A stretch of 64,000 bases of DNA from Erythrobacter sanguineus (GTDB lineage: Bacteria > Pseudomonadota > Alphaproteobacteria > Sphingomonadales > Sphingomonadaceae), in contig NZ_FRDF01000008.1 of the NCBI RefSeq assembly GCF_900143235.1, forward strand, positions 1-64,000. The letters are read 5' to 3'. The notes under the pieces are model-generated. The model made no database searches, had not been told where the DNA came from, and saw only the letters and a list, made by a program, of their open reading frames with translations. The translations under genes were made by a program, and so were the position numbers. Shown here one piece after another: positions 7,738 through 33,379 of this stretch. Each line of letters opens with the position of its first letter. Position 1 is the stretch's first letter.

Positions 7738-7758
7738 TGTGTTTTCCTCATCCGGGCA

Positions 7759-8919: not shown

Positions 8920-9008
8920 GGCGAGGTGCTCTAACGGGGTTTGCGGGGTTGGAAAAGGCTGGCGCGCACGGCGGGCTTGCGGATTTTTGTTAGGCCACAT
9001 GCAAATTT

Positions 9009-9047
9009 GCGTAACCCGATGCATCTCGCATGCGTAACTGGGTGCAT
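9009..9047. repeat. two 16-base direct repeats in a divergent promoter region
   Basis: GCGTAACCCGATGCAT (9009-9024) and GCGTAACTGGGTGCAT (9032-9047) agree at 13 of 16 bases with 23-base spacing, in the 126-base gap between the divergent acyl-CoA dehydrogenase gene and the gene at 9046. The second copy runs into the ATG. Spacing close to two helical turns would suit a dimeric regulator; no regulator gene adjoins. Confidence 0.35.
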
Positions 9048-18510: not shown

Positions 18511-18625
18511 AAGCGCTGAGACCAACACGAAATATCTGGGAGCCGGTTGCGAAAGGTTGTCCCGGGGATAGGCGCCGGGCCGAGCCACCCGGCAAGGCCG
18601 GGTCCGGTGGATGAGCTCAGCGCTT
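18511..18625 (-). promoter_or_regulatory. structured mRNA leader of the SulP gene (candidate cis-regulatory RNA)
   Basis: On the minus strand, AAGCGCTGAG (18625-18616) and CTCAGCGCTT (18520-18511) are perfect 10-base complements enclosing ~95 bases. Inside are a GC hairpin with arms CCCGGC/GCCGGG around a CTT loop and a second hairpin with arms CCCGG/CCGGG. The closing stem ends 52 bases before the transporter ATG. This multi-stem architecture is riboswitch-like. A leader motif upstream of alphaproteobacterial sulfate transporter genes has been reported (I recall it as sul1); identity not tested. Confidence 0.5.
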
Positions 18626-18760
18626 AACGGACAAGAAGCGGTGCTGCAAGTGCGAAGACTGCGCAGCACAGCAATCGTGCTGGCGCGCTGGATATCCACA
18701 TCGTCGAGCTCCGAAACCCGCAACACGATATCCCTGAAATATCTTCGTCCGTCAGCTTAT

Positions 18761-18777
18761 TTGCGATTGCTTCGCAA
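18761..18777. promoter_or_regulatory. Fur-like operator, distal copy
   Basis: TTGCGATTGCTTCGCAA, an inverted repeat TTGCGA-N5-TCGCAA located 50 bases before the TonB receptor ATG. Resembles Fur-type iron boxes of proteobacteria and is one base different from the second copy at 18798-18814. Confidence 0.65.
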
Positions 18778-18797
18778 TATTATGGCCATTAGTGGGG

Positions 18798-18814
18798 TTG
18801 CGATTGATTCGCAA
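18798..18814. promoter_or_regulatory. Fur-like operator, proximal copy
   Basis: TTGCGATTGATTCGCAA, ending 12 bases before the TonB receptor ATG and 37 bases from the first copy. Two near-identical palindromes ahead of an iron-type receptor strongly suggest repression by Fur (or a related metalloregulator) under iron sufficiency. The rest of the 368-base gap from 18459 holds the SulP leader and no protein gene. Confidence 0.65.
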
Positions 18815-18826
18815 AAAGGTGTTCCG

Positions 18827-21004
18827 ATGTCCGACCGTTTCATGATGCTCAGGCTTTCGCTCATGTGCACTGCGCTGCTCCCCGCACCGCTGCTTGCCCA
18901 GACCGGCGCATCGGACCGCGATGATCAGGAAGAGCCGCAGGCCCTGCAAGAAAACGCCGATCGCATCATCGTGACTGGCCGCGCCCAGAAGCTGTATCGT
19001 GCGGAAAAGACCTATGCCAGCAAGCTGCCGACCGAGCCGTTGCTGTCCAGCCAGAACATCACCGTCATCACCAGCGAACTGATCCAGGATCAGGGCGCGC
19101 GGGACGCGCAGGACATTTATCGCAACATCTCGGGCGTCAGCTTCTTCAGCTATGCCGGGGTCACCGCGCGCGGGTTCCGGCAGGAGGAAATCTTCTTCGA
19201 TGGCCTGCGCGGCGATCCCTATGCGGGTTTTTCCGTGCCGCAGCTGTTCAACCTTGAACGGGTCGAATTCCTGAAAGGCCCGGCAGGGATGCTCTATGGC
19301 CCCGGCGCGCCGGGCGGGCTGTTCAACTACGTCACCAAGAAACCGCAGAACGGCCCCCTAACCGCCGATGTGCGCGGGATCATCGGCAATGCCGACCGCT
19401 TCGGTGGTTCGGTCGAGGTCAATTCTTCGCTGGGTGGTGACTTCGCGGCGCGTGGCGGCTTGTTCTACGAGGATCGCGGGCTGTTCCGCACCAACGCCTC
19501 ATCGCGCACCTTCATCGCCGATGGCGGCGTATCATGGGACCCGGGCCCGGTGCGGGTGATCCTGCAGGCGACCCGATATGATCAGGAACTCGACGCCAAC
19601 CGGTTGCGCGGGGTGCCGACCGACAATGATGGCAATTTTCTCGCCAGCCGACGTTGGAACCACAACGAACCGGGCGACTTCCTCAACCTTCAGTCCGATG
19701 TGCTGCAAGCCCGGATCGAGGCCGAGCCGCTGACTGGCGTCACCTTTGATGCCACCTTGCGTTACAACAACGCGGTCGAGGAACAACAATATCACGAACC
19801 GCGCGGGCTGTTCGATTCCGATGGCGACGGCGTGCGCGATGCTTCGGTCCGCGAATTCCGCGATCAACGTCGTGAACAGGAAAACTGGTCATTCGGCACC
19901 AATCTTGTGTGGGCAACCACGATTGGCGAACTCGGCAACCGGCTCCTCGTTGGCGGCGACTATTTTGACGGTTCGCTCGATTTTGACAGCCGCCTCGTGC
20001 GCGGCCGAGCCACGTCCACGCCGGGCCTGCCCAATCCGCTCAGCCTGCTCAACCCGGTCTATGGCGTGTCCGACCCGGCCACCTACAACCTGCCAGCCTT
20101 CCAGAATCGCCTGACCGAAGGCTATCGCTGGGGTGTCTACCTGCTCGACGAACTGACGATCGGGCGACTGATCCTGACAGGAGGATTGCGCTTCGATCGC
20201 TTCAGCGACACCATCACCGGGGGTGCGTTCGGGATTGTTCAGGCGGACAGTTTTTCCGATGAGGACATGACCTGGCGGGCTGGCGCGGTGTACCGGGTGA
20301 CCGACGCAATTTCGTTGTTCGGCCAGTATTCGACCAGCTTCGAGCCGCAGGCGATCGGATCCCAGGACCCGCGCGCGGGCGGGCCCTTCAGCCCGACCAC
20401 CGGCGACATGTTCGAAGGCGGGATCAAGACCGCGCTGATGGGCGGACGGATCCAGTCCTCGCTGACCGCCTATCAGATCCGCCGCCGCAACATCCTGCAG
20501 ATCGATCCGCGCGGCGATGTCGGCAATGACGGGGTCGATGATTTCGTCGCTTTTGGCGAGGTTACCTCAAGGGGCATCGAGTTTGACATCGCTGCCGACA
20601 TCACGCCCGACTGGGTGCTGACGCTGGCCTATGCCTACAACGACACCACCGTCACCGGTGACAATGGCGGAGGCGGAATCGGCAACCGGGTGGGCGATCG
20701 TTTCGCCAATGCGCCTGAACATCAGCTCGGCTTCTGGACGCGCTATCAGCTGCCCGAAACCGGTCTGGCCGTGGCCTTCGGCGGCGATTACGTATCCGAA
20801 CAGGTCAGCCTTTCCGGCCAGCGGGTGCAGCCCTTCATGATCTTCGATGCCTCGCTGATCTACGAAGTCGGGCCGATCCGCGCGATGCTGCGCGCCGATA
20901 ACCTGTTCGACAAGACCTATGCCGTATCCGGTTTCATCGACCGCACCGGGCATTTCCCGGGCGAGCCGCGCTCGGTGTTCATCGAGGTCGGCTACGCTTT
21001 CTGA
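18827..21004 (+). CDS. TonB-dependent siderophore receptor
   Basis: 725 residues: signal peptide (MSDRFMMLRLSLMCTALLPAPLLAQ), a plug domain with ITVITSELIQDQGARDAQDIYRNISGV, TARGFRQEEIFFDGLRGD, VEFLKGPAGMLYGPGAPGGLFNYVTKKP, and a beta-barrel ending in the aromatic EVGYAF. This is the FhuA/FpvA-like iron-siderophore class. Start chosen at the signal peptide with AAAAAGG upstream; an upstream ATG at 18611 would add 72 non-homologous residues across the operators. Followed by a PepSY membrane protein, as in many ferric-siderophore uptake loci; probably repressed by iron. Confidence 0.92.
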   Translation: MSDRFMMLRLSLMCTALLPAPLLAQTGASDRDDQEEPQALQENADRIIVTGRAQKLYRAEKTYASKLPTEPLLSSQNITVITSELIQDQGARDAQDIYRNISGVSFFSYAGVTARGFRQEEIFFDGLRGDPYAGFSVPQLFNLERVEFLKGPAGMLYGPGAPGGLFNYVTKKPQNGPLTADVRGIIGNADRFGGSVEVNSSLGGDFAARGGLFYEDRGLFRTNASSRTFIADGGVSWDPGPVRVILQATRYDQELDANRLRGVPTDNDGNFLASRRWNHNEPGDFLNLQSDVLQARIEAEPLTGVTFDATLRYNNAVEEQQYHEPRGLFDSDGDGVRDASVREFRDQRREQENWSFGTNLVWATTIGELGNRLLVGGDYFDGSLDFDSRLVRGRATSTPGLPNPLSLLNPVYGVSDPATYNLPAFQNRLTEGYRWGVYLLDELTIGRLILTGGLRFDRFSDTITGGAFGIVQADSFSDEDMTWRAGAVYRVTDAISLFGQYSTSFEPQAIGSQDPRAGGPFSPTTGDMFEGGIKTALMGGRIQSSLTAYQIRRRNILQIDPRGDVGNDGVDDFVAFGEVTSRGIEFDIAADITPDWVLTLAYAYNDTTVTGDNGGGGIGNRVGDRFANAPEHQLGFWTRYQLPETGLAVAFGGDYVSEQVSLSGQRVQPFMIFDASLIYEVGPIRAMLRADNLFDKTYAVSGFIDRTGHFPGEPRSVFIEVGYAF

Positions 21005-21032
21005 TGCAATTGAGGGCCTTCTGATGCAACTG
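20999..21032 (+). repeat. 20-base tandem duplication at the receptor/PepSY junction
   Basis: TTCTGATGCAATTG (20999-21012) and TTCTGATGCAACTG (21019-21032) repeat with period 20 and one difference. Each copy contains a TGATG stop-start overlap: the first joins the receptor stop to a six-codon frame (MQLRAF), the second joins that frame's stop to the true start of the PepSY gene. Looks like a local duplication of the start region. Confidence 0.55.
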
Positions 21033-22262
21033 GTGCGCGATCTTGACGCGGCAACGGGCGTGCAGCCCGTGAAGAAGCGCAAGACCTCGCGCCTGTGGTG
21101 GACCGTGCATCAATGGGTGGGGCTGAAGCTCAGCCTGTTCATGGCCTTCATCATGTTCACCGGCACGCTGGCGGTGGTCAGTCACGAGATCGACTGGGTG
21201 CTGCAACCCAGCCTGAGGGTGGCACCCGCCAGTGCCGAAGGGCCGGTCGATTGGGCCGGGATCGCCAGCAATGCCGCGCGCCATCCGGGGGTGGCGCAGG
21301 TATGGTCGATGGAAGCGCCCGTCGCCTCCGCCTTCGCGGTCAAGGTGACGGTGGAGGACAAAGCAGGCGATCTGTTCTACCTCCACGCCCATCCCGCCAC
21401 AGCCGCGATACAGGGCGAAGGGCCTTGGGCAGGCGCGCAGCGGGTGCTGCGCAACATGCATCGCCACCTCAACCTGCCGACCAGGATCGGCGTGCCGATC
21501 GTCGCCTTCCTCGGCTTTCTGCTGCTGGTCACCCTCGTCACCTCGCTGGTGGTCTATAAGAAATGGTGGCGCGGCTTCACCAAACCGCTGCGCAGCCGCG
21601 ATGCGCGGACATGGTGGGGCGATCTCCACCGCCTGTCGGGTGTATGGTCGCTTTGGTTCGTGGCGCTGATGGCTCTCACCGGAATTTGGTATTTCGCCGA
21701 AAGTGTCGGACTGAACGCCCCGCCGCCGCCGAGGGTCAAGATCGCGGGACAGGCCACGCCGATGGCCGAAGGGCTGAAACCCGCTTTCGCCGCCGCGCTC
21801 AATGGCTATCCAGGGCTGGAAGTGCGCCGGGTGCTGCTGCCGGGCGAGGAAAGCCCCGTGCTGCAACTGCATGGCGACCACAAGGCAGTGCTCGTGCGTT
21901 CGCGCGCCAACACGGTCTGGGTCGATCCGGTGAGCGCCAAGGTGCTGCTGACCACCGACGGGCGCGACATGAACCTGCACCAGCGCATCGCCGAAATGGC
22001 CGATCCGCTGCATTTCGGCGACTTCGGCGGGTACTGGACCAAGATTCCGTGGTTCGCGTTCGGCCTGCTGCTGACCAGCCTTTCGCTGTCAGGTGCCGCC
22101 ATCTATTCGCTGCGCATCGCCCGCGAGCGCGGCGACAAGGCCCGGTTGGCGCACGCCTTTGCCGGGATGTGGCGGGGCCTGCCGCGCTGGCGCTGGGTGT
22201 CGGCGGCGCTGATCGCGACCGGGCTTGCCTTGCTGCCTGCGCTGATCTGGCAACTGGGTTGA
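21024..22262 (+). CDS. PepSY-associated transmembrane protein
   Basis: 412 residues with four main membrane segments (LSLFMAFIMFTGTLAVVS; PIVAFLGFLLLVTLVTSLVVY; SGVWSLWFVALMALTGIWY; FAFGLLLTSLSLSGAAIYSL) and conserved His in HQWVGLKL, MHRHLNLP and LHRLSG, matching the PepSY-TM family. These proteins accompany siderophore receptors and are thought to reduce or help release iron at the inner membrane; the His residues may bind heme. ATG at 21024 directly after the receptor. A C-terminal extra hydrophobic segment (WVSAALIATGLALLPALIW) is present. Confidence 0.87.
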   Translation: MQLVRDLDAATGVQPVKKRKTSRLWWTVHQWVGLKLSLFMAFIMFTGTLAVVSHEIDWVLQPSLRVAPASAEGPVDWAGIASNAARHPGVAQVWSMEAPVASAFAVKVTVEDKAGDLFYLHAHPATAAIQGEGPWAGAQRVLRNMHRHLNLPTRIGVPIVAFLGFLLLVTLVTSLVVYKKWWRGFTKPLRSRDARTWWGDLHRLSGVWSLWFVALMALTGIWYFAESVGLNAPPPPRVKIAGQATPMAEGLKPAFAAALNGYPGLEVRRVLLPGEESPVLQLHGDHKAVLVRSRANTVWVDPVSAKVLLTTDGRDMNLHQRIAEMADPLHFGDFGGYWTKIPWFAFGLLLTSLSLSGAAIYSLRIARERGDKARLAHAFAGMWRGLPRWRWVSAALIATGLALLPALIWQLG

Positions 22263-22310
22263 AGCCCGCTTCCAACCGCAGCGCAAGGGGCCACCAAGAC
22301 CCCCGCAAGC

Positions 22311-23177
22311 CTAACCGAACAACCGCCCCGCCACGGCATCCAGCCTGGCCATCACGGCCGGATCATGTTCGTCCGGCGCGGTTATCACCGCATCGTCGAG
22401 CGCGGTATCAATGGGTGACGCCTCGCGCTGCTTGGGCAAGGCGGCGATAAAGTTCCTGACCATTGCCCGCGCCAGCGCGCCATTGGCCTGCATCTGTCCG
22501 ATCACCTGCGCGACATCAACCGCTTCGCCTTCACGCCAGCAGTCGTAATCGGTGACCATGCCGACAAGGGCATAGGGCAGCTCCGCCTCGCGCGCGAGCT
22601 TGGCTTCGGGCATCGCGGTCATGCCGATCACATCCGCGCCCCACTGGCGGTACATCCGGCTTTCGGCGCGGGTGGAGAATTGCGGGCCTTCCATCGCGAG
22701 ATAGGTCGCGCCCACGGCGACCTTGCCCTTGGCCTTGGCCACCGCCTTGGCCGCCATCTCCGACAGGCGCGGGCAGACCGGATCGGCCATTGAGACATGG
22801 GTCACAAAGCCGCTGGTGAAGAAGGTGCTTGGTCTTGCCACGGTGCGGTCGATAAATTGTTCGACCACGGCAAAGCGCCCCGGCTCCAGCTCCTCGCGCA
22901 AGGAACCGACGGCCGAGATCGCAAGGATATCGGTGCAGCCCGCGCGCTTCAATGCATCAATATTGGCGCGCGAATTCAATTCGGTCGGGCTGACAGGGTG
23001 CCCGCGCCCGTGGCGGGGAAGAAAGCGCACCTTCACGCCTTGCAGCGTCCCGCACAGGATTTCGTCCGAGGGATCGCCCCACGGCGTATCAATCGCGATC
23101 CACTGGGCCTCCTCGATGCCGTCGATCGCATAAAGGCCCGATCCGCCGATGATCCCGATGCACCATTCGCTGGCCAT
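22311..23177 (-). CDS. mtnP: S-methyl-5'-thioadenosine phosphorylase
   Basis: 288 residues of the PNP/MTAP family. It splits methylthioadenosine (from polyamine or quorum-signal synthesis) into adenine and methylthioribose-1-phosphate for methionine salvage. Seen: IGIIGGSGLYAIDG (phosphate loop), RHGRGHPVSPTELNSRANIDALK, AISAVGSLREE, TYLAMEGPQFSTRAESRMYRQWGADVIGMT and MVTDYDCW. The MEGPQFSTRAES stretch separates MTAP from inosine phosphorylase. Single gene convergent with the PepSY gene. Confidence 0.93.
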   Translation of the reverse strand: MASEWCIGIIGGSGLYAIDGIEEAQWIAIDTPWGDPSDEILCGTLQGVKVRFLPRHGRGHPVSPTELNSRANIDALKRAGCTDILAISAVGSLREELEPGRFAVVEQFIDRTVARPSTFFTSGFVTHVSMADPVCPRLSEMAAKAVAKAKGKVAVGATYLAMEGPQFSTRAESRMYRQWGADVIGMTAMPEAKLAREAELPYALVGMVTDYDCWREGEAVDVAQVIGQMQANGALARAMVRNFIAALPKQREASPIDTALDDAVITAPDEHDPAVMARLDAVAGRLFG

Positions 23178-23218
23178 GCTTGCCGCTCTGTCCTTTGTTC
23201 GCCGTGTGGGGATCCGGA

Positions 23219-23923
23219 TTAGGTCAGGTCGAACCGGGTGGGCAAGGCCTTGCGGACCATCTTTTCCGCCGCTGCGTAAGGTTGGGCGATGGAAGCCCGC
23301 GCCTGCATCGCGGCGAAGTGGGCGGCAAGCGCGGGCCAGCGGTCAAGCGGCGTTTCGGCCACCAGCGACACCTGCATCAGCACGCATGCGACCGAAATAT
23401 CCGCAATCGACAAGGCCTCGCCGGCAAAAAATCCGCTTCCGCCGAGCCTGCCCTCAAGCACGTCGAACACAGCCGGCATCTGGTTGGCCCAGGCATCGCG
23501 GGCCTTGGCAAGATCGGGCTCGTCGCCCTTGGAAATGGCGAAGAAGATCGGGCGAAAGATGCCCAGCCCCCCAGCCATAGCCAATGCAGTATCGGCATAT
23601 TCCTCGATGAACAGCGCCTCGCCCAGCGCCATCGGGTCTTCGGGATAAAGCGCAGGGGCAGGATGCTTGCGTTCGATCATCGCGCAGATCGCGGAGGAAT
23701 CGGCGATCGTGCCGGCCACGCCTTCTTCGGCCACCGACCGATCGCGCAGCACCGGAATCCGCTTCATCGGCGAGATATCGCGGAACCACTGGGGCGGATC
23801 GAACACGTTCACCGCCTCGATCTCGTAGGGAACCTGCTTTTCGATGCAGAGCCCCGCCACCTTGCGCACGAAGGGCGAAACCGGGCTGCCATAGATGACC
23901 AGATCGGGGCGGGAATCACTCAT
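23219..23923 (-). CDS. glutathione S-transferase family protein
   Basis: 234 residues: an N-terminal thioredoxin-like domain (LVIYGSPVSPFVRKVAGLCIEKQ with Ser/Tyr contact residues, SPMKRIPVLRD cis-Pro, DSSAICAMIERK) and an all-helical C-terminal domain with LSIADISVACVLMQ. Catalyses glutathione conjugation or peroxide reduction in general; class not assigned. Start at 23923 (MSDSRPDL). It is divergent from the aldehyde dehydrogenase gene, which could point to shared handling of reactive aldehydes or epoxides. Confidence 0.82.
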   Translation of the reverse strand: MSDSRPDLVIYGSPVSPFVRKVAGLCIEKQVPYEIEAVNVFDPPQWFRDISPMKRIPVLRDRSVAEEGVAGTIADSSAICAMIERKHPAPALYPEDPMALGEALFIEEYADTALAMAGGLGIFRPIFFAISKGDEPDLAKARDAWANQMPAVFDVLEGRLGGSGFFAGEALSIADISVACVLMQVSLVAETPLDRWPALAAHFAAMQARASIAQPYAAAEKMVRKALPTRFDLT

Positions 23924-24111
23924 GCACATTCTCCGTGAAGGCAGGTTTGGCCGCCTCCATAGGCGCACCGGGCAATAGCGCAATCGCCAGTAGCCGCGCA
24001 TCACCCCAAGGCCTACACGATCCGGCACAGCAGCGATTGCGTTTTCGGATGCGACGCGCCAGTTTGTGAGGGAGAGAGACAACTCCCCCGCTTCGTTAGA
24101 GAGGAATAATC

Positions 24112-25539
24112 ATGGCCACCCAATACAAGAACCTCATCAATGGCGAGATGATCGCCGCCGACCGCTGGCTCGACGTGGTCAACCCGGCGAACGAACAGGT
24201 GATTGGCCAGGTGCCCGCCTGCGGCAAAGACGAACTCGACAAGGCGGTCGCCGCCGCGCGCGGAGCGTTCAAGACGTGGAAGAACACCCCGATCGAGGAA
24301 CGCCGCGCTGCGATCATGGCGATTTCGGCCGCGATCAAGGAAAACGCCGAGGAACTCTACCGCTTGCTCACCGCCGAACAGGGCAAGCCGCACGACCAGG
24401 CCAAGGGCGAAATCTACGGCGCTGCGGGCATGAGCGCGGCGCAATCGACCCTCAGCCTCGAGGATGAAATCAACGAGGACAGCGATACGCGCCTTTCACG
24501 CACCCGCCGCGTGCCGGTGGGCGTGGTCGGCGGGATCGTGCCGTGGAACTTCCCGGTGATGATGGCGATCCAGAAGATCGTACCCGCCATGCTGTCGGGC
24601 TGCACCATCGTTTTGAAGCCCTCGCCCTTCACCCCGCTCACCACCCTCAAGATCGCCGAGCTGATTGCGGACAAGGTGCCCGCCGGTGTGGTCAACATCA
24701 TCACGGGTGAGGACGATCTTGGCCCGATGATCACTTCGCACCCCGATATCGACAAGATCACCTTCACCGGATCGACCGCCACCGGCAAAAAGATCATGGA
24801 AGGCGCCAGCGCCGATCTCAAGCGCATCACGCTGGAACTCGGTGGCAACGACGCCTCGATCGTGCTGCCCGATGCCGATCCCAAGAAGGTCGCCGAACAG
24901 CTGTTCTGGTCCAGCTTTTCTAACGCCGGGCAGATCTGCATCGCGGCCAAGCGCGTCTATATCCACGAGGATATCTATGATGAGCTGTCGGCGGCGATCG
25001 TCGAATATGCAAAGAATGTGAAAGTCGGCGACGGCAGCCAGCAGGGCACGGGCGTCGGTCCGATCCAGAACAAGAAGCAGTACGAACGCGTGCTCGACCT
25101 GATCGAGGATGCCAAGGACAAGGGCTACAAGTTCCTGCTGGGCGGCAATACCGATCCCACCGGCACCGGCTATTTCGTGCCGCTGACCATCCTCGACAAC
25201 CCGCCCGAAGATGCGCGGATCGTGGCCGAGGAACAGTTTGGCCCGGTCATGCCGCTGATGAAGTTCTCTTCCGAAGAAGAAGTCATCGCGCGCGCCAACA
25301 ACTCCGAATATGGCCTTGCGGGCGCGGTGTGGACCGCCAACCCGGACAAGGGTGTGGAGATCGCCGAACAGCTGGAAACCGGCACGGTGTGGGTGAATGA
25401 ATTCCTGCACCTTTCGCCCTTCGCCCCGTTCGGCGGGCACAAGCAATCGGGCTTCGGCGCCGAATACGGCAAGGAAGGCCTGAAGGAGTTCACCTATCCG
25501 CAGGTGATCACCGTCAAGAAGGACAACGTGCCTGCGTAA
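24112..25539 (+). CDS. NAD(P)-dependent aldehyde dehydrogenase (semialdehyde type)
   Basis: 475 residues, the length of succinate-semialdehyde/hydroxy-aldehyde dehydrogenases. Motifs: VPWNFPVMMAIQKIVPAMLSG, TGSTATGKKIME, LELGGND with catalytic Glu (about E242) and SNAGQICIAAKR with nucleophile Cys (about C276), plus PFGGHKQSGFGAEYGKEGL. GAGAGGAATAATC is the ribosome binding region. The next gene starts 3 bases after its stop. In this operon with an LvaAB-like kinase and an acyl-CoA dehydrogenase it may oxidise a 4-hydroxyaldehyde or similar to the acid. Substrate unproven. Confidence 0.87.
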   Translation: MATQYKNLINGEMIAADRWLDVVNPANEQVIGQVPACGKDELDKAVAAARGAFKTWKNTPIEERRAAIMAISAAIKENAEELYRLLTAEQGKPHDQAKGEIYGAAGMSAAQSTLSLEDEINEDSDTRLSRTRRVPVGVVGGIVPWNFPVMMAIQKIVPAMLSGCTIVLKPSPFTPLTTLKIAELIADKVPAGVVNIITGEDDLGPMITSHPDIDKITFTGSTATGKKIMEGASADLKRITLELGGNDASIVLPDADPKKVAEQLFWSSFSNAGQICIAAKRVYIHEDIYDELSAAIVEYAKNVKVGDGSQQGTGVGPIQNKKQYERVLDLIEDAKDKGYKFLLGGNTDPTGTGYFVPLTILDNPPEDARIVAEEQFGPVMPLMKFSSEEEVIARANNSEYGLAGAVWTANPDKGVEIAEQLETGTVWVNEFLHLSPFAPFGGHKQSGFGAEYGKEGLKEFTYPQVITVKKDNVPA

Positions 25540-25542
25540 ACC

Positions 25543-26898
25543 GTGCGGCTCTCCGCTGACGAACTGAACGCCGGGCTAGCGCGGGTGTGTTCCCGCGCTG
25601 GCCTTGGCGTGTTGTCGGGAGAGCTTCAGCGGCTCACCGGCGGGGCGGTGATGGAAAGCTGGCGCTTTGCGGCTGGGACAAGCGCCTACGTCCTGCGCCG
25701 CGCGCCGAGTATCGAATTCATGCAAGGGCGGCCCTATGGGCACTCCACCGAAGCCGCGCTGATCGAGGCAGCCCGCGCCAAGGGCGTGACTGCGCCGGAA
25801 GTGGTGGCGGTGCTGGACGGGCCCGACGGGCTTGGCAGCGGCTTCGTGATGCGCGCTTTGCCGGGGACGGCTGATCCCAAGGTTATTCTGGCTTGCGACG
25901 ATCCGGCGGGGCTGCTCGCTGAGGCGGCGCGGGATCTGGCGCGGATTCATCGCTTGCGGCAGTCAGATGTGCCGGAGGGCGTGCCGGTGATGGATTACGC
26001 GTGCGCGATTGCCGACCTCAAGGCGCAGTTCATGGAGGCGGGCGGGGATCGCCCGATCATCGCGCTGGGGCTGAAGTGGCTGGAGGATAACTGCCCCGAC
26101 GCGGTCGAGCCTGTCCTCAACCACGGCGATTACCGGATGGGAAACCTGCTGGTGGAGGGTTCGACCCTGACGGGCGTGCTCGACTGGGAACTCGCGCACT
26201 TTGGCGACCCCCACGAAGACTTGGCCTTCGGCTGCATGGCAGTGTGGCGCTTTGCCCGGTATGATCGCCCCGCGCTGGGGCTGGGGTCACTGGAGGATTA
26301 CTTCGCCGCCTACGAGGCCGAAGCGGGGGTGACAGTCGATCCCGCGCGGTTCCGCTTCTGGACGATCTACCGCACCGTGTGGTGGGCATTGGGCTGCCTC
26401 AAGATGGCGGCGCAATGGCGCTCGGGCGCGGACCGGATGCTGGAGCGCGTGGTGATCTCGCGCCGGACCAGCGAGCAGGAACTGGACCTGCTGCTGCTGC
26501 TGGAGGAGGATGCTCCGGAGGTGGAGCGGGCGCGGCTGGTCCCTGCATTCCATTCCGGCGCGGAAACCGAATTCGGCGAAGCAAGCGATCAGGAGACCCT
26601 GACGGCGATTTCCGAATGGATCGCCTCGATAAAGGACCAGCTTTCACCGCACGACAGGTTTCAGGCAGCCGTTGCACGAAACGCGCTTGGCATTGTTCGG
26701 CGGGAGGTAATGCACGGAGCCTCCGAGCTGTTCTTCCACGACCAGCGACCATCGCAAATTTTGACAGGTGATCTCTGGCTCGATGCGCCCGAGTTTCTAG
26801 CGACACTGAGAATGCGTGCGCTAACCAAAGTCGAGATCGATTCACCCAAATACCCCGCGCTTGGCCATGCGCGCAAAAAATGGACCGGAGAGCAATAA
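25543..26898 (+). CDS. phosphotransferase fused to a DUF6285-like domain (LvaA-LvaB type)
   Basis: 451 residues. Residues ~1-330 are an aminoglycoside-phosphotransferase-like kinase (ACAD10/11 N-terminal type): HGDYRMGNLL (H194/D196) and GVLDWELAHFGDPHEDLAFGC (metal Asp about D214). Residues ~345-451 (AISEWIASIKDQLSPHDRFQAAVARNALGIVRREV...) resemble the small DUF6285/LvaB protein that is separate in most genomes. LvaA plus LvaB phosphorylate the 4-hydroxyl of 4-hydroxyacyl-CoA. GTG start, 3 bases after the aldehyde dehydrogenase stop; TAA is directly followed by the next ATG. Fusion of both subunits is the odd point. Confidence 0.78.
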   Translation: MRLSADELNAGLARVCSRAGLGVLSGELQRLTGGAVMESWRFAAGTSAYVLRRAPSIEFMQGRPYGHSTEAALIEAARAKGVTAPEVVAVLDGPDGLGSGFVMRALPGTADPKVILACDDPAGLLAEAARDLARIHRLRQSDVPEGVPVMDYACAIADLKAQFMEAGGDRPIIALGLKWLEDNCPDAVEPVLNHGDYRMGNLLVEGSTLTGVLDWELAHFGDPHEDLAFGCMAVWRFARYDRPALGLGSLEDYFAAYEAEAGVTVDPARFRFWTIYRTVWWALGCLKMAAQWRSGADRMLERVVISRRTSEQELDLLLLLEEDAPEVERARLVPAFHSGAETEFGEASDQETLTAISEWIASIKDQLSPHDRFQAAVARNALGIVRREVMHGASELFFHDQRPSQILTGDLWLDAPEFLATLRMRALTKVEIDSPKYPALGHARKKWTGEQ

Positions 26899-28185
26899 AT
26901 GGACTTCGCCATCCCCGCCGACCTTCAGGCCTATCTCGATGAACTCGATGCCTTCATCGCCGCCGAGATCAAGCCGCTCGAGAGCCAAGACGACAATATC
27001 CGCTTCTTCGACCACCGCCGCGAATATGCGCGCACAGATTTCGAGGCGGGCGGGCTGCCCCGGCACGAGTGGGAGGAACTGCTCAAGGAAGCCACCCGCC
27101 GCGCCGACAAGGCCGGGCATTGGCGCTTCTCCGCGCCCAAACGCTATGGCGGCAAGGACGGCAGCAACCTGTGGATGGCGGTGATCCGCGAGCATTTTGC
27201 GCGGGCTGGCCTCGGCCTGCACAATGATTTGCAGAACGAACACAGCATCGTTGGCAACTTCCCCTTCGTCGCCATGTTCGACCAGTGGGGGACCGAGGAG
27301 CAGAAGGCCGAATTCATCACCGGCGGATTTGAACGCACCCGCCGCGTTGCCTTTGGCCTGACCGAACCCGACCACGGCTCGGATGCCACCCACATGGAAA
27401 CCGTCGCAGTCCGGGAAACCCGCGACGGGGTCGATGGCTGGCGGATCGATGGCGAGAAGATGTGGATCACCGGCATGCACGTTGCCACCCACTGCGCGAT
27501 TTTCGCGCGCACTTCGGGCAAGGCGGGGGATGCCAGCGGGATCACCTGCTTCCTTGTCCCCAACCCCACCGAAGGCCTCAAGATCGAGGAGTGGATGTGG
27601 ACCTTCAACATGCCCACCGACCACCCGCGCCTCAGCGTCACCAATGTCTGGGTGCCCGATAGCGCAATCCTCGGCGTGGAAGGCCGCGGCCTCGCGCTGG
27701 CGCAGAGCTTCGTCCACCAGAACCGCATCCGGCAGGCGGCGTCATCCTGCGGCGCGGCGCTTTATTGCATTGATGAAAGCGTGAAATACGCGCGGGAGAG
27801 GAAGCCCTTCGGCGAGGAGTTGGCGCGCAATCAGGCGATCCAGTTCCCCTTGGTGGAGCTGGCGACGCAGGCGGAAATGCTGCGGCTGCTGATCTTCAAG
27901 ACGGCGTGGGAGATGGACAATATGCCCCACGAACAGATCGAGCGCACCATCTCCGACAAGGTCTCTATGTGCAATTACTGGGCGAACCGGCTGGTGTGCG
28001 AGGCGGCAGACCGCGCGATGCAGGTCCACGGCGGCATCGGCTATTCGCGCCACAAGCCGTTCGAACACATCTACCGCCATCACCGCCGTTACCGGATCAC
28101 CGAAGGCAGTGAGGAAATCCAGATGCGCAAGGTTGGGGCATACCTGTTCGGCTATCTCGGGCCGAAGCGCGGGACGTTTTCCTGA
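26899..28185 (+). CDS. acyl-CoA dehydrogenase (LvaC/ACAD11-like)
   Basis: 428 residues, longer than short-chain enzymes. Signatures: FGLTEPDHGSDATHMET, DGEKMWITGMHVATHCAIFART, RPFGEEL-type segment (KPFGEELARNQAIQFPLVELATQAEMLRLLIFK), QVHGGIGYSRHKPFEHIYRHHRRYRITEGSEEIQMRKVG with a Glu at about 402. Its ATG directly abuts the stop of the fused kinase gene. In LvaC-type systems this enzyme converts 4-phosphoacyl-CoA to a 3-hydroxy or enoyl product. Ordinary beta-oxidation is the alternative, but the kinase neighbour argues for the phospho-elimination route. Confidence 0.82.
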   Translation: MDFAIPADLQAYLDELDAFIAAEIKPLESQDDNIRFFDHRREYARTDFEAGGLPRHEWEELLKEATRRADKAGHWRFSAPKRYGGKDGSNLWMAVIREHFARAGLGLHNDLQNEHSIVGNFPFVAMFDQWGTEEQKAEFITGGFERTRRVAFGLTEPDHGSDATHMETVAVRETRDGVDGWRIDGEKMWITGMHVATHCAIFARTSGKAGDASGITCFLVPNPTEGLKIEEWMWTFNMPTDHPRLSVTNVWVPDSAILGVEGRGLALAQSFVHQNRIRQAASSCGAALYCIDESVKYARERKPFGEELARNQAIQFPLVELATQAEMLRLLIFKTAWEMDNMPHEQIERTISDKVSMCNYWANRLVCEAADRAMQVHGGIGYSRHKPFEHIYRHHRRYRITEGSEEIQMRKVGAYLFGYLGPKRGTFS

Positions 28186-28193
28186 GGTTCGTC

Positions 28194-28213
28194 GCCCCGG
28201 CGCAGGCCGGGGC
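28194..28213. terminator. GC-rich hairpin between convergent genes
   Basis: GCCCCGGC (28194-28201), loop GCAG, GCCGGGGC (28206-28213). The flanking GTCGC/GGGTGAC bases make it match a dispersed intergenic repeat common in this group. It sits in the 39-base gap between the acyl-CoA dehydrogenase and the BASS gene. There is no T-tract. Confidence 0.5.
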
Positions 28214-28224
28214 CGGGGTGACGG

Positions 28225-29184
28225 TTATCGCCGCCGCCACCAGCCGGCCAGCAGGCTGCCGATCACCACGTGCCACACGGCTGAAATGGCTGCCGGGACG
28301 GGCGCAAGCACAGCCTGCTGCAAGTTTGCGAATTGCGCGGCGAAAGCAGGGGTTTTGGCAAGGCCTGAACCGAGGCCGGAATTCTGCATTCCGACCTCGA
28401 TCGAGACAGTGCGCGCCTCGACCTCCCCAAGCCCCAGCAGTCGCGCCAGCACATATCCCAGCGCAAAGCCTGTCGCATGCAGCAGAAAGGTCGCCAGCAA
28501 GAGCACGCCGGCGTGCTGCGCGATCTGCGCCTTGGCTCCGCCGACAATCCCGCCCACGATCAGGATCACCAGCACGATCGCCACCAGCGGCAGAACAGCG
28601 CTCACCGCCCCTGCCGCACGCGGGAACAGGCGGTTCAGCAGCGTGCCTGCAACCACCGGCACCAGCACGATGGCGATCATGTTGGTGAGCAGGTTCCAGC
28701 GGTCAATCTCCACATAAGCCCCCGCCAGCCAGCCGGTCAGCAGCGGGGTCAGCACCACAGCGGCAAGGGTCGAGGCCATGGTCATCGCCACCGACAGGGC
28801 AACATTGCCGCGCGCCAGAAAAGCCACCACGTTGGACGCCGTCCCGCCCGGACAGCAGGCGACAAGGATCAGCCCCACCGCTAGACCCGGCTCCAGCGCC
28901 AGCACGCGGGCAATCGCGAACCCCGCCAGGGGCATCACCGCAAATTGCAGCGCCACACCTGCGATCAGCGCGCGCGGCAGGGCGGCCAGCTTGCGGTAAT
29001 CATCAAAGGTCAGCGTCAGGCCCATCGCCAGCATGATCGTGCCGAGCGCGAGGCTCAGCAGCGGCTGGCCCGCGACTGCGATGCTGCCATCGGTCATCCA
29101 CGTGAACAGTGTCGGGAAAAACCACGCGAGGCCCACGCCCAGCACCGTCAGCACGGCAAAATTGTTGGTGATGATGCGCAGCAT
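28225..29184 (-). CDS. bile acid:sodium symporter family (BASS) protein
   Basis: 319 residues with nine or ten hydrophobic segments: LALGTIMLAMGLTLTFDDYRKL, VGLILVACCPGGTASNVVAFLARGNVALSVAMTMAST (the crossover region with Na+ site), EVGMQNSGLGSGLAK (second Na+ site), and LLNRLFPRAAGAVSAVL. This is the BASS/SBF fold for sodium-coupled uptake of organic anions such as pantoate, pyruvate or sulfated steroids. Substrate unknown. Divergent from the amidohydrolase fusion; convergent to the LvaC-like gene. Confidence 0.88.
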   Translation of the reverse strand: MLRIITNNFAVLTVLGVGLAWFFPTLFTWMTDGSIAVAGQPLLSLALGTIMLAMGLTLTFDDYRKLAALPRALIAGVALQFAVMPLAGFAIARVLALEPGLAVGLILVACCPGGTASNVVAFLARGNVALSVAMTMASTLAAVVLTPLLTGWLAGAYVEIDRWNLLTNMIAIVLVPVVAGTLLNRLFPRAAGAVSAVLPLVAIVLVILIVGGIVGGAKAQIAQHAGVLLLATFLLHATGFALGYVLARLLGLGEVEARTVSIEVGMQNSGLGSGLAKTPAFAAQFANLQQAVLAPVPAAISAVWHVVIGSLLAGWWRRR

Positions 29185-29292
29185 TGTGTGCCTTCCCCTC
29201 AGGCGCAGCCTCTAATCGACCAACGGCGTTCCGCCCCCTAGCAATATCGTTGCGCGGCGCTAGTCTCCCGCGCCAACACAGGAGACATTTTC

Positions 29293-32200
29293 ATGCGTCA
29301 TATCGCCGCCGCCCTGCTCGCCGGGGCCGTCTGCATTACCCCAAACCTTTCAGCGCCGCTCGCCGCCCAGTCGAAGGGCAAGTCCGCCAAGGCTGACGCA
29401 AGCTGGAGCGTCGAGGCGCCCAAGGGTGCAAAGATCAAGCAGGTCCCGATCCGCACCGACGAAGGCACGTGGATGGATGTCGACGTGTCGCCCGATGGTC
29501 AGACGCTCGCCTTCACGCTGCTCGGCGATATCTACACGATGCCGATTTCTGGGCCGATCACCGGCGGCACGCCCAAGCGCATCACCGAGGGCCTTGCGTG
29601 GGATGTCCACCCGCGTTTCTCGCCCGATGGCACGCGCATCGCCTTCACCTCCGATCGCGGCGGCGGGGACAATATCTGGGTCATGAACGCCGATGGCAGC
29701 GACCCGCGGCAGGTGACCAAGGAGGATTTCCGCCTGCTCAATCAGCCCGCCTGGTCGCCCGACGGGCGGTTCATTGCCGCCAAGAAGCATTTCACCACCG
29801 GGCGCTCGCTCGGCACCGGCGAGATCTGGCTCTACCACGTGTCGGGCGGCGGCGGGGTGCAGGTGGTCGAGCGCGCCAATGAAGCCTTGCAGAAGGAACT
29901 GGGCGAGCCGGTGTTCGCCCCTGATGGAACTGCGATCTATTACACCCGCAACACCACCGGCGGGAACATCTTCGAATATGCGCAGGATTCTAACGCGGGC
30001 ATCTTCGCGATCGAACGCCATGATCTTGCCACCGGTGAAGTGACAACCGCTGTCGATGGCTATGGCGGCGCGGTGCGGCCCGCGCCCTCGCCCGATGGCA
30101 AGGAAATCGCCTTCGTCCGCCGCGACAAGGATCAGAGCCAGCTGTGGGTCAAGGATCTGGCCAGCGGGGGCGAGCGGATGATCTATGGCAAGCTCGATCT
30201 CGATGTGCAGGAAACATGGGCGGTGACCGGGGTCTATCCCAACATAGACTGGCTGCCCGACAGCAGCGGGATTGTCTTCTGGGCGGGCGGCAAATTGAAC
30301 CGCGTGAACCGCGACGGATCGGGGCACGCGGTGATCCCCTTCACCATCTCCGACACGCGCGGGATCGCCGATGCGCCGCATCCGGTGATCGATGTGTCGC
30401 CAGACAGCTTCACCACCGCCATGCCGCGCTTTGCCACGCTGTCGCCCGACGGGGCGCGGGTGGTGTTCGAAAGCCTCGGGCGGCTCCATTCCAAGTCAGT
30501 GCGCAGCAAGGATGCACCCGCCCCGCTGACCGGCGACAGCGCCGACGCAGTGGAAGCCTTCCCCGCTTTCAGCCGCGACGGCAGCAGCCTTGCCTATGTG
30601 CGCTGGAACGATGCGACGCTGGGCGAAATCGTGATCGCTGATGCCACCGGGCAGAACCGCCGCGTGCTAACCGGGCCGGGCCATTTCGGCAACATCGCCT
30701 TTTCGCCCGATGGCGGCATGATCGCCTTTGAAAAGCGTGAGGGCGGATACCTCACCGCACCCGATTATTCGCAGAACCCCGGCGTCTATGTGATGCCGGT
30801 CAGCGGCGGGGAGCCACGCCTTGTCAGCCGCGATGGCGGCAATCCGCAATGGGGCGCTGCCTCCGACCGCCTGTTAATGCTGGCAGGCGAAGGCGGCAAG
30901 CTGGCGCTGATCTCCACCGACCTCAATGGCGAAGCGCGGCGGGTGCATGCCAAGGGCGAACTCGCCAATGATTTCCGCATCGCGCCGGATGGCCGCACCA
31001 TCGCCTTTCGCCAGAATTACGAGGTGTTCGCCATGCCGCTGGTGCCCGGCGGCAAGCCGGTGGATGTCAGCGAAAAGGGCGGGCCGCTGCCTGTCACCAA
31101 GGTCAGCACCGGAGGCGCGGACTACCTCGGCTGGGCGCGCGGGGGTGAGACGCTGTTCTGGTCGATCGGCCCGAGCCTGCAGAGCGCCAATGTCAACGAT
31201 TTCTTCCCTACCGCGCCCAAGGCAGATGGCGACAAGGCCGCAACCTACACCCCGCCCACTGCCGGAGTGCCGCTTGGCATGACAGTCATGGCGGCCAAGC
31301 CCTCCGGCACCACTGTCATCACCGGGGCGCGCATCCTGACCATGAAGGCAGGCCTTGCGCGCGAGGATGCAGGCGCGATCGAAAACGGCGTGATCGTGAT
31401 CGAAGGCGATCGGATCAAGGCTATCGGCGCAGCGGGCAGCGTCGCCGTGCCTGCGGGCGCGCGCCTGATCGATGCCAGCGGCAAGACCATCATGCCCGGT
31501 ATCGTCGATGCCCATGCCCACGGGCCTTACGGGGTCGGCGACCTCATCCCGCAGCAGAACTGGACGCTGCTCCAGGATCTCGCGCTGGGCGTGACCACGG
31601 TGCACAATCCGTCGAGCCAGGCCAGCACGGTGTTTGCCACCGCCGAACGCCAGCGGGCGGGCCTGACGCTGGCCCCGCGCATCTTCTCGACCGGCGAGAT
31701 CATCTATGGAGCCAAGGCGCCAGCGGTCTATGCCCGGATCGACAGCTATGATGATGCGCTGGCCCATGTCCGCCGGATCAAGGCGCAGGGCGGGATTTCG
31801 GTCAAGAACTACAACCAGCCCCGGCGCGAACAGCGCCAGATGGTCGCCCGCGCCGCCGCGCAGGAGAACATGCTGGTAGTGGCCGAGGGCGGATCGCTGT
31901 TCGGGATGGACATGAACCTTGTCGCCGACGGCAATTCCACCATCGAGCATAATGTGCCGGTCGATATATTCTACGAAGACGTGCTGCAATTCTTCGGCCA
32001 GTCGAACAGCAATTACACCCCCACGCTGGTGGTTACCTATGGCGGGCTGGCGGGCGATCCCTACTGGCGGCAGGCGATGGACGTGTTCGATCACCCGCTG
32101 ATGATCCACACGCCCCCCAAGGCGCTGCTCGCCGCCAATGCCCGGCGGGTGAAAGCGCCCGAATGGGCTTTCGTGGATGATAATTCCGCGCGCGAGGCCG

Positions 32201-32631
32201 ACAAGCTGGCCGAGCGGGGCGTAAAGGTCAGCATCGGCGCGCATGGCCAGCAGGCCGGGATCGGCGCGCATTGGGAGATCTGGAGCTTCGCGCGCGGCGG
32301 GATGACCCCGGTCGAGGCCTTGCGGGCCGCCACCATCGTCCCGGCCCAATCGCTCGGCATGGCGCAGGACATCGGCAGCCTTGAGATCGGCAAGCTCGCC
32401 GATCTGGTGATCCTGTCGGACGATCCCAGTCAGGACATCCGCAAGTCCGATAGCATCGAGCAGGTGATGCTCGGCGGGCGGCTGTACGATGCGACGACGC
32501 TGAACGAAGTCGGCACCGGCTCGGCGACGCGGCAGCCCTATTGGTGGGATGCCAATGGCGGCAAGGGTGCGGGCGGATCCGAAGCAGCGACCCACGCGGG
32601 CAGCGGCCATGTCGATGGGGATGCAGGGTAG
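29293..32631 (+). CDS. exported beta-propeller plus amidohydrolase fusion protein
   Basis: 1112 residues. A signal peptide (MRHIAAALLAGAVCITPNLSAPLAAQ) is followed by ~650 residues of WD40-like/PD40 repeats (SPDGTRIAFTSDRGGGDNIWV, SPDGRFIAAKKHFTTG, SPDGKEIAFVRRDKD, ...) as in TolB and tricorn propellers, then an amidohydrolase domain from about residue 670: IMPGIVDAHAHGPYG with metal His at 741 and 743, a Lys in VKNYNQPRREQRQ, His in STIEHNVPVD and SIGAHGQQ, and IGSLEIGKLADLVILSDDP near the end. Likely periplasmic hydrolase of peptide-like or cyclic amide substrates. The role of the propeller may be gating, as in tricorn. Single gene, divergent from the BASS gene. Confidence 0.85.
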   Translation: MRHIAAALLAGAVCITPNLSAPLAAQSKGKSAKADASWSVEAPKGAKIKQVPIRTDEGTWMDVDVSPDGQTLAFTLLGDIYTMPISGPITGGTPKRITEGLAWDVHPRFSPDGTRIAFTSDRGGGDNIWVMNADGSDPRQVTKEDFRLLNQPAWSPDGRFIAAKKHFTTGRSLGTGEIWLYHVSGGGGVQVVERANEALQKELGEPVFAPDGTAIYYTRNTTGGNIFEYAQDSNAGIFAIERHDLATGEVTTAVDGYGGAVRPAPSPDGKEIAFVRRDKDQSQLWVKDLASGGERMIYGKLDLDVQETWAVTGVYPNIDWLPDSSGIVFWAGGKLNRVNRDGSGHAVIPFTISDTRGIADAPHPVIDVSPDSFTTAMPRFATLSPDGARVVFESLGRLHSKSVRSKDAPAPLTGDSADAVEAFPAFSRDGSSLAYVRWNDATLGEIVIADATGQNRRVLTGPGHFGNIAFSPDGGMIAFEKREGGYLTAPDYSQNPGVYVMPVSGGEPRLVSRDGGNPQWGAASDRLLMLAGEGGKLALISTDLNGEARRVHAKGELANDFRIAPDGRTIAFRQNYEVFAMPLVPGGKPVDVSEKGGPLPVTKVSTGGADYLGWARGGETLFWSIGPSLQSANVNDFFPTAPKADGDKAATYTPPTAGVPLGMTVMAAKPSGTTVITGARILTMKAGLAREDAGAIENGVIVIEGDRIKAIGAAGSVAVPAGARLIDASGKTIMPGIVDAHAHGPYGVGDLIPQQNWTLLQDLALGVTTVHNPSSQASTVFATAERQRAGLTLAPRIFSTGEIIYGAKAPAVYARIDSYDDALAHVRRIKAQGGISVKNYNQPRREQRQMVARAAAQENMLVVAEGGSLFGMDMNLVADGNSTIEHNVPVDIFYEDVLQFFGQSNSNYTPTLVVTYGGLAGDPYWRQAMDVFDHPLMIHTPPKALLAANARRVKAPEWAFVDDNSAREADKLAERGVKVSIGAHGQQAGIGAHWEIWSFARGGMTPVEALRAATIVPAQSLGMAQDIGSLEIGKLADLVILSDDPSQDIRKSDSIEQVMLGGRLYDATTLNEVGTGSATRQPYWWDANGGKGAGGSEAATHAGSGHVDGDAG

Positions 32632-32647
32632 AAATCGGGGGGGTGGC

Positions 32648-33379
32648 CTAATCCGCCCCCTCCGCTTCCATCAGCGCCTTAAGGTCTTTCAAGGCCTTGG
32701 CGCGCAGCTGGTGGACGCGCGGCACGCTGACTTCGAGCACGGCGGCGATTTCGGTGAGGTTCAACTCCTCGACGAAGAACAATTGCAGCACCAGCTTCAG
32801 CCGCTCGGGCAGGGCAATCATCGCCCGCAGCAATCGCTCGCGGTCTTCGGCGGCGCATAAGGCCTCGAACGGGTCGGGATCATCGCTGGCGAAGGCGGTC
32901 GAGCTTTCGTCATACTCCTCGGAGATTGAAGTCAGGGTCACGCCTGCGCTCTCGATCGACAGCAATTCGGCATCGTCGACATCAAGCGCGCGCGCCAGCT
33001 CTGCCCGGCTGGGTTCACGCCCCAAGGTGCCGCGCAGGCTTGCGAGCGCGCGCTCGAAGGCGGCGCGTTTGCGGCGCGCGGTGCGGGTATCATGCGCGGC
33101 GCGGCGCACTTCGTCCAGCATCGCCCCGCGCACCCGGATCTTGGCATAGGCGGCAAAGCCATCCTCGGTCGGCCCGGCATGGCGCTGGGCGCATTCGGTC
33201 AGGGCAAGGATGCCCGCCTGCACCAGATCCTCGATTTCGAGCCCGTCCCGCCCGCTGCCATGGATATGCCATGCCGCGCGGCGCACCAGCGGCAGGAAAC
33301 GGCGCACGCGGTCTTCAACCTCGGCGCGGGAGGGCGCGTAAGGCTGCGCTCCGGCAAAGCTTTGGGCATCATGTTTCAT
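32648..33379 (-). CDS. fliA: flagellar sigma factor sigma-28 (FliA)
   Basis: 243 residues of the FliA class (regions 2, 3, 4, no region 1.1). Region 2 contains VRRAAWHIHGSGRDGLEIEDLVQAGILALTECAQRH; region 3 DEVRRAAHDTRTARRKRAAFERALASLRGTLGREPSRAELARAL; region 4 LPERLKLVLQLFFVEELNLTEIAAVLEVSVPRVHQLRAKAL. Directs late flagellar genes and is held off by FlgM. ATG overlaps the flhA stop as TGATG. FliA is uncommon among alphaproteobacterial flagella, which supports a transferred type of regulation. Confidence 0.93.
   Translation of the reverse strand: MKHDAQSFAGAQPYAPSRAEVEDRVRRFLPLVRRAAWHIHGSGRDGLEIEDLVQAGILALTECAQRHAGPTEDGFAAYAKIRVRGAMLDEVRRAAHDTRTARRKRAAFERALASLRGTLGREPSRAELARALDVDDAELLSIESAGVTLTSISEEYDESSTAFASDDPDPFEALCAAEDRERLLRAMIALPERLKLVLQLFFVEELNLTEIAAVLEVSVPRVHQLRAKALKDLKALMEAEGAD

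Follow-up and report, generated by a model that had tools for sequence, protein, structure and literature searches.

A kinase–DUF6285 fusion and a Glu-type acyl-CoA dehydrogenase of Erythrobacter sanguineus form a conserved predicted unit related to, but not a copy of, the levulinate/ACAD11 pathway

The first 64 000 nucleotides of contig NZ_FRDF01000008.1 of E. sanguineus (assembly GCF_900143235.1; this whole analysed stretch is referred to as the window) carry two adjacent genes, one encoding an APH-type kinase joined to a DUF6285 domain and the other an acyl-CoA dehydrogenase (ACAD) with a predicted catalytic Glu. The kinase, the DUF6285 domain and the Glu-type ACAD together make up a conserved unit, which is related to the levulinate/ACAD11 pathway without copying it. 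From comparison of sequences, we consider it marginally the better supposition that this two-gene unit removes a hydroxyl group from an acyl-CoA via phosphorylation, feeding beta-oxidation, with a substrate or chemistry unlike that of LvaC, the ACAD of the Pseudomonas putida levulinate operon. A preliminary description of the window had combined these genes with an upstream aldehyde dehydrogenase (ALDH) gene in a predicted 4-hydroxyacyl-CoA pathway. Its three adjacent genes with gaps of 0–3 bases correspond to the open reading frames in Table 1, the gaps being 3 bases between ALDH and the kinase fusion and 0 bases between the fusion and the ACAD. The domain calls are based on a Pfam scan of the translated reading frames, which confirmed the ALDH, APH kinase and ACAD identities and placed DUF6285 within the residues (345–451) where it had been guessed. 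The proposal that LvaA and LvaB are here one protein is likewise matched by the fusion, with the ACAD as the next gene.

The further assignment of the ACAD as an LvaC-type dehydrogenase does not survive inspection of its active site. Work on mouse ACAD11 assigns catalysis to Asp753 and phosphate binding to a helix that contains R626, H634 and R637; replacement of these three by Ala or Leu is given there as most disruptive, R637K as partly so, and replacement of the catalytic Asp by Asn as abolishing activity (PMC12440821). The window ACAD has F271, Q279, S282 and E402 at these places, all four being different, and the HCMR motif is absent, its position being occupied by Q279 A280 A281 S282. 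The HCMR enzyme encoded in this genome aligns with ACAD11 ungapped across the motif and served to check the register. A 40-row ACAD alignment shows no variation at F271, Q279 and E402 and almost none at S282, and the stretch that precedes the catalytic Glu, PFEHIYRHHRRYRITEG, hardly varies between sphingomonads and haloarchaea. ACADs of the HCMR/Asp type occur in kinase-containing clusters of Thermus, Stutzerimonas, Azospirillum, Azoarcus, Massilia, Paroceanicella and Paracoccus (seven plasmid loci aligned; the Azotobacter cluster, L081, was left out, and the small Paracoccus gene, annotated as hypothetical, lay outside the Pfam scan). In Variovorax, the ACAD adjoining the kinase/DUF6285 pair is of a generic kind.

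A 34-row tree of bacterial and archaeal ACADs, in which the genome's own ACAD11-type enzyme stands in for ACAD10/11, groups the window-type enzymes in one clade (100/100). Its sister group consists of the LvaC/ACAD11-type rows and one ACAD from the same genome without HCMR (joint support 99/95). Support for the LvaC-type rows as a group is 94/83, and the window ACAD falls outside the LvaC/ACAD10/11 clade. A 48-row quick tree agrees on this placement. A one-clade test on the quick tree rejected the window-type and LvaC-type rows together (p 6e-6), which is expected because two rows inside the clade, L006_own and an HCMR ACAD of Bradyrhizobium, had been labelled 'other'. The four residues and the tree rule out LvaC-type membership. 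The earlier term 'ACAD11-like' thus holds for the sister-group relationship but not for the active site.

The structural model of the ACAD (pLDDT 80) was also compared with known folds. Foldseek's own list is headed by conventional ACADs, while re-alignment of the matches by VIA ties ACAD11 (Z 36.0) with CarC (35.9) at the top; these two were not separated, and fold comparison was dropped as evidence of membership. By sequence, the best matches in the Protein Data Bank (PDB) are conventional ACADs, for example CarC (4e-42), with ACAD11 at 6e-22.

The kinase–DUF6285 fusion is genuine and no sequencing artefact, since the protein is matched over its full length in 48 of the 196 Sphingomonadales genomes sampled, all of them from the family of the window (counted from the match table). 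One of these matches (G119) has an in-frame TAG. In one more genome beyond the 48 (G182) the sequence is interrupted by a run of assembly Ns, and an apparent 863-aa kinase–ACAD fusion there (L062) was discarded as an artefact of this run. In other families of the class, the kinase adjoins DUF6285 in all 13 DUF6285-positive regions examined (from 14 genomes, the fourteenth being G319) and is fused to it in six, four of which were Pfam-scanned and all confirmed. The two are separate, adjacent genes in Rhizobiales, Sulfitobacter, Thermus and others, and the order in Nocardia farcinica is DUF6285–kinase–ACAD. Both LvaA-type features are present in the window: the signature HGDxxxxN ... DWE in an APH fold, and a small DUF6285 partner adjoining or joined to the kinase. 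D196, N201 and D214 of the kinase are invariant across 21 aligned fusions. The DUF6285 domain is divergent, scoring 40.8 bits against 79–111 bits for four stand-alone relatives scanned, and a profile search of the source genome finds it once, at this locus. Matches to the predicted structure of the fusion (pLDDT 88) are headed in Foldseek by a putative APH (3dxp), 25-hydroxysteroid kinase (9fsg) and Rv3168 (3ats). A literature search for DUF6285 returned 0 papers, and no description of the ACAD subfamily or the fusion was seen in the titles and abstract starts of the open-access matches listed.

The genome contains a separate ACAD11-type pair. On contig C16, an ACAD with HCMR and ADGPDEVH matches ACAD11 at 4e-134, and a kinase 1.2 kb away matches it at 8e-71; the corresponding values for the window pair are 6e-22 (ACAD) and 4e-5 (kinase). 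An ACAD11-type enzyme is present in 159 of the 196 order genomes at E <= 1e-90 (assigned by score, the HCMR motif not being read individually), including 54 of the 56 with a window-type ACAD (the exceptions are G186 and G188). In addition, five Bradyrhizobium loci (L158, L159, L160, L161 and L164) hold both a Glu/QAAS and an HCMR/Asp ACAD within 21 kb, together with kinase and DUF6285; CoA ligases, hydratases and an SDR are also present in the members examined. Because both kinds co-occur in genomes and in these loci, the window-type ACAD is no simple replacement of LvaC.

These results bear on the possibility that the window encodes a true 4-hydroxyacyl-CoA pathway after all, in which the ACAD would remove phosphate from 4-phosphoacyl-CoA with residues other than R626, HCMR and Asp. 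The sister position of its clade, the first rank of ACAD11 (tied with CarC) after re-alignment by VIA, and kinase and DUF6285 partners whose families also occur in lva-type operons all speak in its favour. We nevertheless regard it as unlikely. F271, Q279, S282 and Glu402 occupy the places where changes in ACAD11 are reported to be disruptive (PMC12440821), an ACAD11-type ACAD is already present in almost all genomes with the window type, and the proximity of both kinds in the five Bradyrhizobium loci argues for different jobs. A 4-hydroxyacyl-CoA route, which the preliminary description had rested on this locus, need not depend on it, since by sequence the separate C16 pair is available.

A second alternative casts the ACAD as an ordinary alpha,beta-dehydrogenase, with Glu402 as catalytic base and electrons passed to ETF, acting within the pathway of the kinase, phosphate loss being due to another enzyme or absent. 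The conventional catalytic Glu, a pocket helix without charged phosphate ligands and the better sequence match to CarC than to ACAD11 are consistent with this. The sister position to LvaC/ACAD10/11 and the tight coupling to the kinase and to DUF6285, a domain present in single copy in the genome, argue against it, and we think it improbable. Removal of a hydroxyl through phosphorylation, by a chemistry or on a substrate unlike that of LvaC, is the reading preferred here.

Conservation of gene neighbourhood indicates which genes belong to the unit. A scan of contigs with the ACAD gave at least 590 relatives, and the best 80 loci were analysed, all at >=75% identity and hence close relatives. 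Kinase and DUF6285 accompany the ACAD in 65 of these 80 (53 fused, 12 with both unfused), while DUF6285 alone is found in two and neither in 13. Any other gene cluster is present in at most 22, the 22 being DNA polymerase I, which with a GroEL-type chaperonin is among the commonest other neighbours outside close relatives. Orthologues of ALDH and of the divergent glutathione S-transferase (GST) each occur in 12 of the 80 loci, all within the 13 closest to the window, which are titled Erythrobacter, Porphyrobacter, Erythrobacteraceae and, once, uncultured Alphaproteobacteria. ALDH and the kinase are about 0.7–2.3 kb apart in seven of the 12 ALDH loci. Among regions from order genomes, the ALDH and GST orthologues are found in 5 of 19, all of the window's genus. 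On this survey ALDH and GST are rejected as pathway members; if ALDH is part of the unit at all, it is so in close relatives only. Neither the suggestion that ALDH replaces the SDR and CoA-ligase neighbours of the lva genes nor the use of GST as supporting context can be upheld, although the GST gene is indeed divergent from the set. A three-gene set for detoxification of 4-hydroxyaldehydes, consisting of ALDH, kinase and ACAD with GST, would account for the gene order of the window and its repetition in close relatives. The narrow distribution of ALDH and GST, the spacing between ALDH and kinase, and the identity of the commonest neighbours elsewhere make it very improbable. Two of the loci merit separate mention: L110 apparently has its kinase fusion some 0.6 Mb from the ACAD, and L162, a 3.3-kb metagenome contig titled as a Bordetella parapertussis metagenome-assembled genome, encodes an ACAD 75% identical to that of the window, its species label being doubtful.

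The survey of Sphingomonadales that had been proposed as a check supports the pairing of kinase and ACAD. All 48 fusion genomes possess a window-type ACAD, which adjoins the fusion on the same strand in 45 (in 44 within 150 bases and in G116 at 786, measured between match ends). With cut-offs chosen after inspection of the match lists, the kinase (E <= 1e-30) and the ACAD (E <= 1e-100) mark an identical 56 of the 196 genomes. In the eight of these that lack a full-length fusion match, the kinase adjoins the ACAD in four (G105, G149, G182 and G188) and lies 3.8 kb from it in G186. In a sample of 289 alphaproteobacterial genomes, the ACAD is present in 41, DUF6285 in 66 and both in 40; DUF6285 thus occurs in 40/41 genomes with the ACAD and in 26/248 without it (Fisher p 3e-30, uncorrected for kinship). 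The two lie within about 5 kb of each other in 7 of the 40, although true linkage may be higher because some ACADs sit near contig ends. Since linkage is seen in so few, inheritance as one operon does not explain the co-occurrence. Further afield, Nocardia has the trio of kinase, DUF6285 and ACAD, and haloarchaea have kinase and ACAD: the haloarchaeal plasmid loci L075, L076 and L079 encode a window-type ACAD (57–60% identity), a kinase and a 157–159-aa protein. Hydantoinase/oxoprolinase genes lie alongside in two of these three loci. That kinase and ACAD are side by side by chance, with unrelated functions, is scarcely credible, for although they are apart in 3 of the 48 fusion genomes and at least seven of the best 80 loci, they mark the same genomes in the order, and in the class 40 of 41 genomes with the ACAD have DUF6285, the two being mostly not seen linked.

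The proposed hydroxyl removal draws on the neighbours of unfused relatives. The order in Sulfitobacter is CoA ligase–kinase–DUF6285–ACAD–two crotonase-family genes–thiolase–TRAP transporter, and in the members examined of Bradyrhizobium and kin the unfused unit lies near CoA ligases, enoyl-CoA hydratases and an SDR. The CoA ligases and hydratases beside these relatives suggest a CoA-bound acid that ends in beta-oxidation. The kinase domain would phosphorylate a hydroxyl of such an acyl-CoA with, by analogy with the kinase family, D196 as the catalytic Asp and N201 and D214 serving Mg-ATP, and the DUF6285 domain may bind and support the kinase in cis, as the separate LvaB does. The ACAD would then accept the phosphorylated acyl-CoA, Glu402 taking the alpha proton with FAD beside it; phosphate would leave, and the resulting enoyl-CoA could enter beta-oxidation, the order of these steps and the loss of phosphate being assumed. 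Since the window ACAD lacks the phosphate-binding helix seen in ACAD11, the hydroxyl probably lies at a position, or in a kind of molecule, other than those handled by LvaC and ACAD10/11.

Several observations weigh against this proposal. All four ACAD11 positions differ in the window ACAD, and a CoA ligase and an SDR are lacking among the window neighbours (18611–33379), as is an acetate symporter. Of the 13 loci without kinase and DUF6285, seven have 10 kb on both sides (L105, L110, L116, L140, L141, L146 and L151). The ACAD lies elsewhere in three fusion genomes (G065, G118 and G180), kinase and ACAD are on different contigs in G121, G133 and G155, and G319 has the ACAD without DUF6285. The haloarchaeal small protein gave no Pfam match above cut-off (two of three scanned) and an hhalign probability of 8.7 against DUF6285. 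Finally, in a kinase tree with long branches, the kinases partnered with window-type ACADs do not form one clade; those partnered with LvaC group weakly (82/58).

A wider proposal, to which we lean a little less than evenly, is that the unit represents a second, undescribed branch of dehydration by way of phosphorylation, in which a kinase and DUF6285, fused in several lineages, and a Glu-type ACAD that accepts a phosphorylated acyl-CoA would dehydrate CoA-bound hydroxy acids without the HCMR phosphate site. The hydroxyl position or molecule class would be outside the 4-hydroxy acids, and the branch would reach from Alphaproteobacteria as far as Nocardia and haloarchaea, the latter having another kind of small partner. 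In the literature found, removal of a hydroxyl by way of a phosphorylated acyl-CoA is described for ACAD10/11 and LvaC. If a sister subfamily performs related chemistry without the phosphate-binding motif, it would reveal which parts of the mechanism are essential; a new substrate class would be opened for bacterial beta-oxidation, and DUF6285, a domain of unknown function, would gain a role as a kinase partner. The locus also serves as a warning that a kinase adjoining an ACAD does not alone imply 4-hydroxyacid degradation.

Table 1. Positions of the unit, its parts and its immediate neighbours in the window
Feature	Position	Strand	Details
Aldehyde dehydrogenase (ALDH)	24112–25539	+	475 aa; Pfam Aldedh, E 1e-159; neighbour in close relatives only, outside the unit
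APH-type kinase + DUF6285 fusion	25543–26898	+	451 aa, GTG start; Pfam; full-length relatives in 48/196 order genomes
APH kinase domain, residues 28–257	25624–26313	+	Pfam PF01636, E 1.7e-24; D196, N201 and D214 invariant in alignment
DUF6285 domain, residues 366–437, LvaB-like partner	26638–26853	+	Pfam PF19802, 40.8 bits (cut-off 28.1)
Acyl-CoA dehydrogenase (ACAD), separate 'Glu/QAAS' subfamily, sister to LvaC/ACAD10/11	26899–28185	+	428 aa; Pfam ACAD domains, alignment, tree
ACAD residues 271–283 (FVHQNRIRQAASS), place of the ACAD11 phosphate-binding helix (R626...HCMR)	27709–27747	+	Alignment
Predicted catalytic Glu402 of ACAD (= Asp753 in ACAD11)	28102–28104	+	Alignment
Divergent glutathione S-transferase (GST)	23219–23923	-	Pfam; neighbour in close relatives, outside the unit

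Besides GST and ALDH, the flanking genes between 18611 and 33379 encode a TonB receptor, a PepSY protein, a PNP-type phosphorylase, an SBF-family transporter, a PD40/amidohydrolase protein and a sigma factor. A promoter and terminator scan of the locus gave two sites of each, against 1.0 and 3.2 expected, and PADLOC returned no match for the kinase or the ACAD. Elsewhere in the window, a second ACAD gene (7759–9024, minus strand) adjoins a gene at 6682–7737 (minus strand) that we take to encode a protein resembling enoyl-CoA hydratase/3-hydroxyisobutyryl-CoA hydrolase; the pair (6682–9024) presumably recalls valine catabolism.

Among the closest parallels are the LvaA, LvaB and LvaC proteins of the P. 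putida levulinate operon, for which Rand et al. 2017 is reportedly the source paper. The likeness lies in the combination of an APH-type kinase, a small partner and an ACAD. In the window, however, the kinase and DUF6285 are fused, the ACAD has no HCMR, upstream Arg or catalytic Asp, and the CoA ligase, SDR and acetate symporter do not adjoin. PMC6692424, in which lva genes of P. citronellolis and strain KT2440 are tabulated, describes KT2440 LvaB as a 12-kDa LvaA-binding protein required for growth on levulinate. A role for DUF6285 as a kinase partner fits with this. P. putida LvaB would itself be a DUF6285 protein, as we infer from its 12 kDa size and the presence of DUF6285 in an lva-type operon on a Stutzerimonas plasmid (L080:5878–12891). 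This operon has the order kinase–DUF6285–His phosphatase–HCMR ACAD–SDR–acyl-CoA synthetase–DUF485–symporter and resembles the tabulated genes of both strains (PMC6692424). The same paper reports lvaB as missing from the P. citronellolis cluster, which is of the Stutzerimonas-like kind, and its table omits ORF (open reading frame) numbers 0388, 0391, 0392 and 0395. Given the skipped numbers, our guess is that an unnoticed lvaB might lie between the kinase and phosphatase genes. In four LvaC-type clusters (L077, L080, L082 and L083) the gene after DUF6285 encodes a histidine phosphatase, which perhaps serves to remove stalled phosphoacyl-CoA.

Mammalian ACAD10 and ACAD11, which combine kinase and ACAD in one chain, share with the window the pairing of these activities and a sister ACAD clade. 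The window kinase is not fused to the ACAD, the key residues differ, and the close match of ACAD11 in this genome is the C16 pair (4e-134 and 8e-71) and not the window pair (6e-22 and 4e-5). The 25-hydroxysteroid kinase of Sterolibacterium (PDB 9fsg), which ranks second when the fusion model is compared with known folds, shares the APH fold; it is reported to phosphorylate a hydroxyl ahead of phosphate elimination, the lyase then being unknown (PMC8449060). Its identity is ~21%, and it acts on a steroid. With conventional ACADs (MCAD, CarC and others) the window enzyme shares the fold and the catalytic Glu. Unlike them, it is conserved over a long N-terminal stretch, carries a segment rich in His and Arg ahead of the catalytic Glu, and is tied to a kinase and DUF6285 by co-occurrence.

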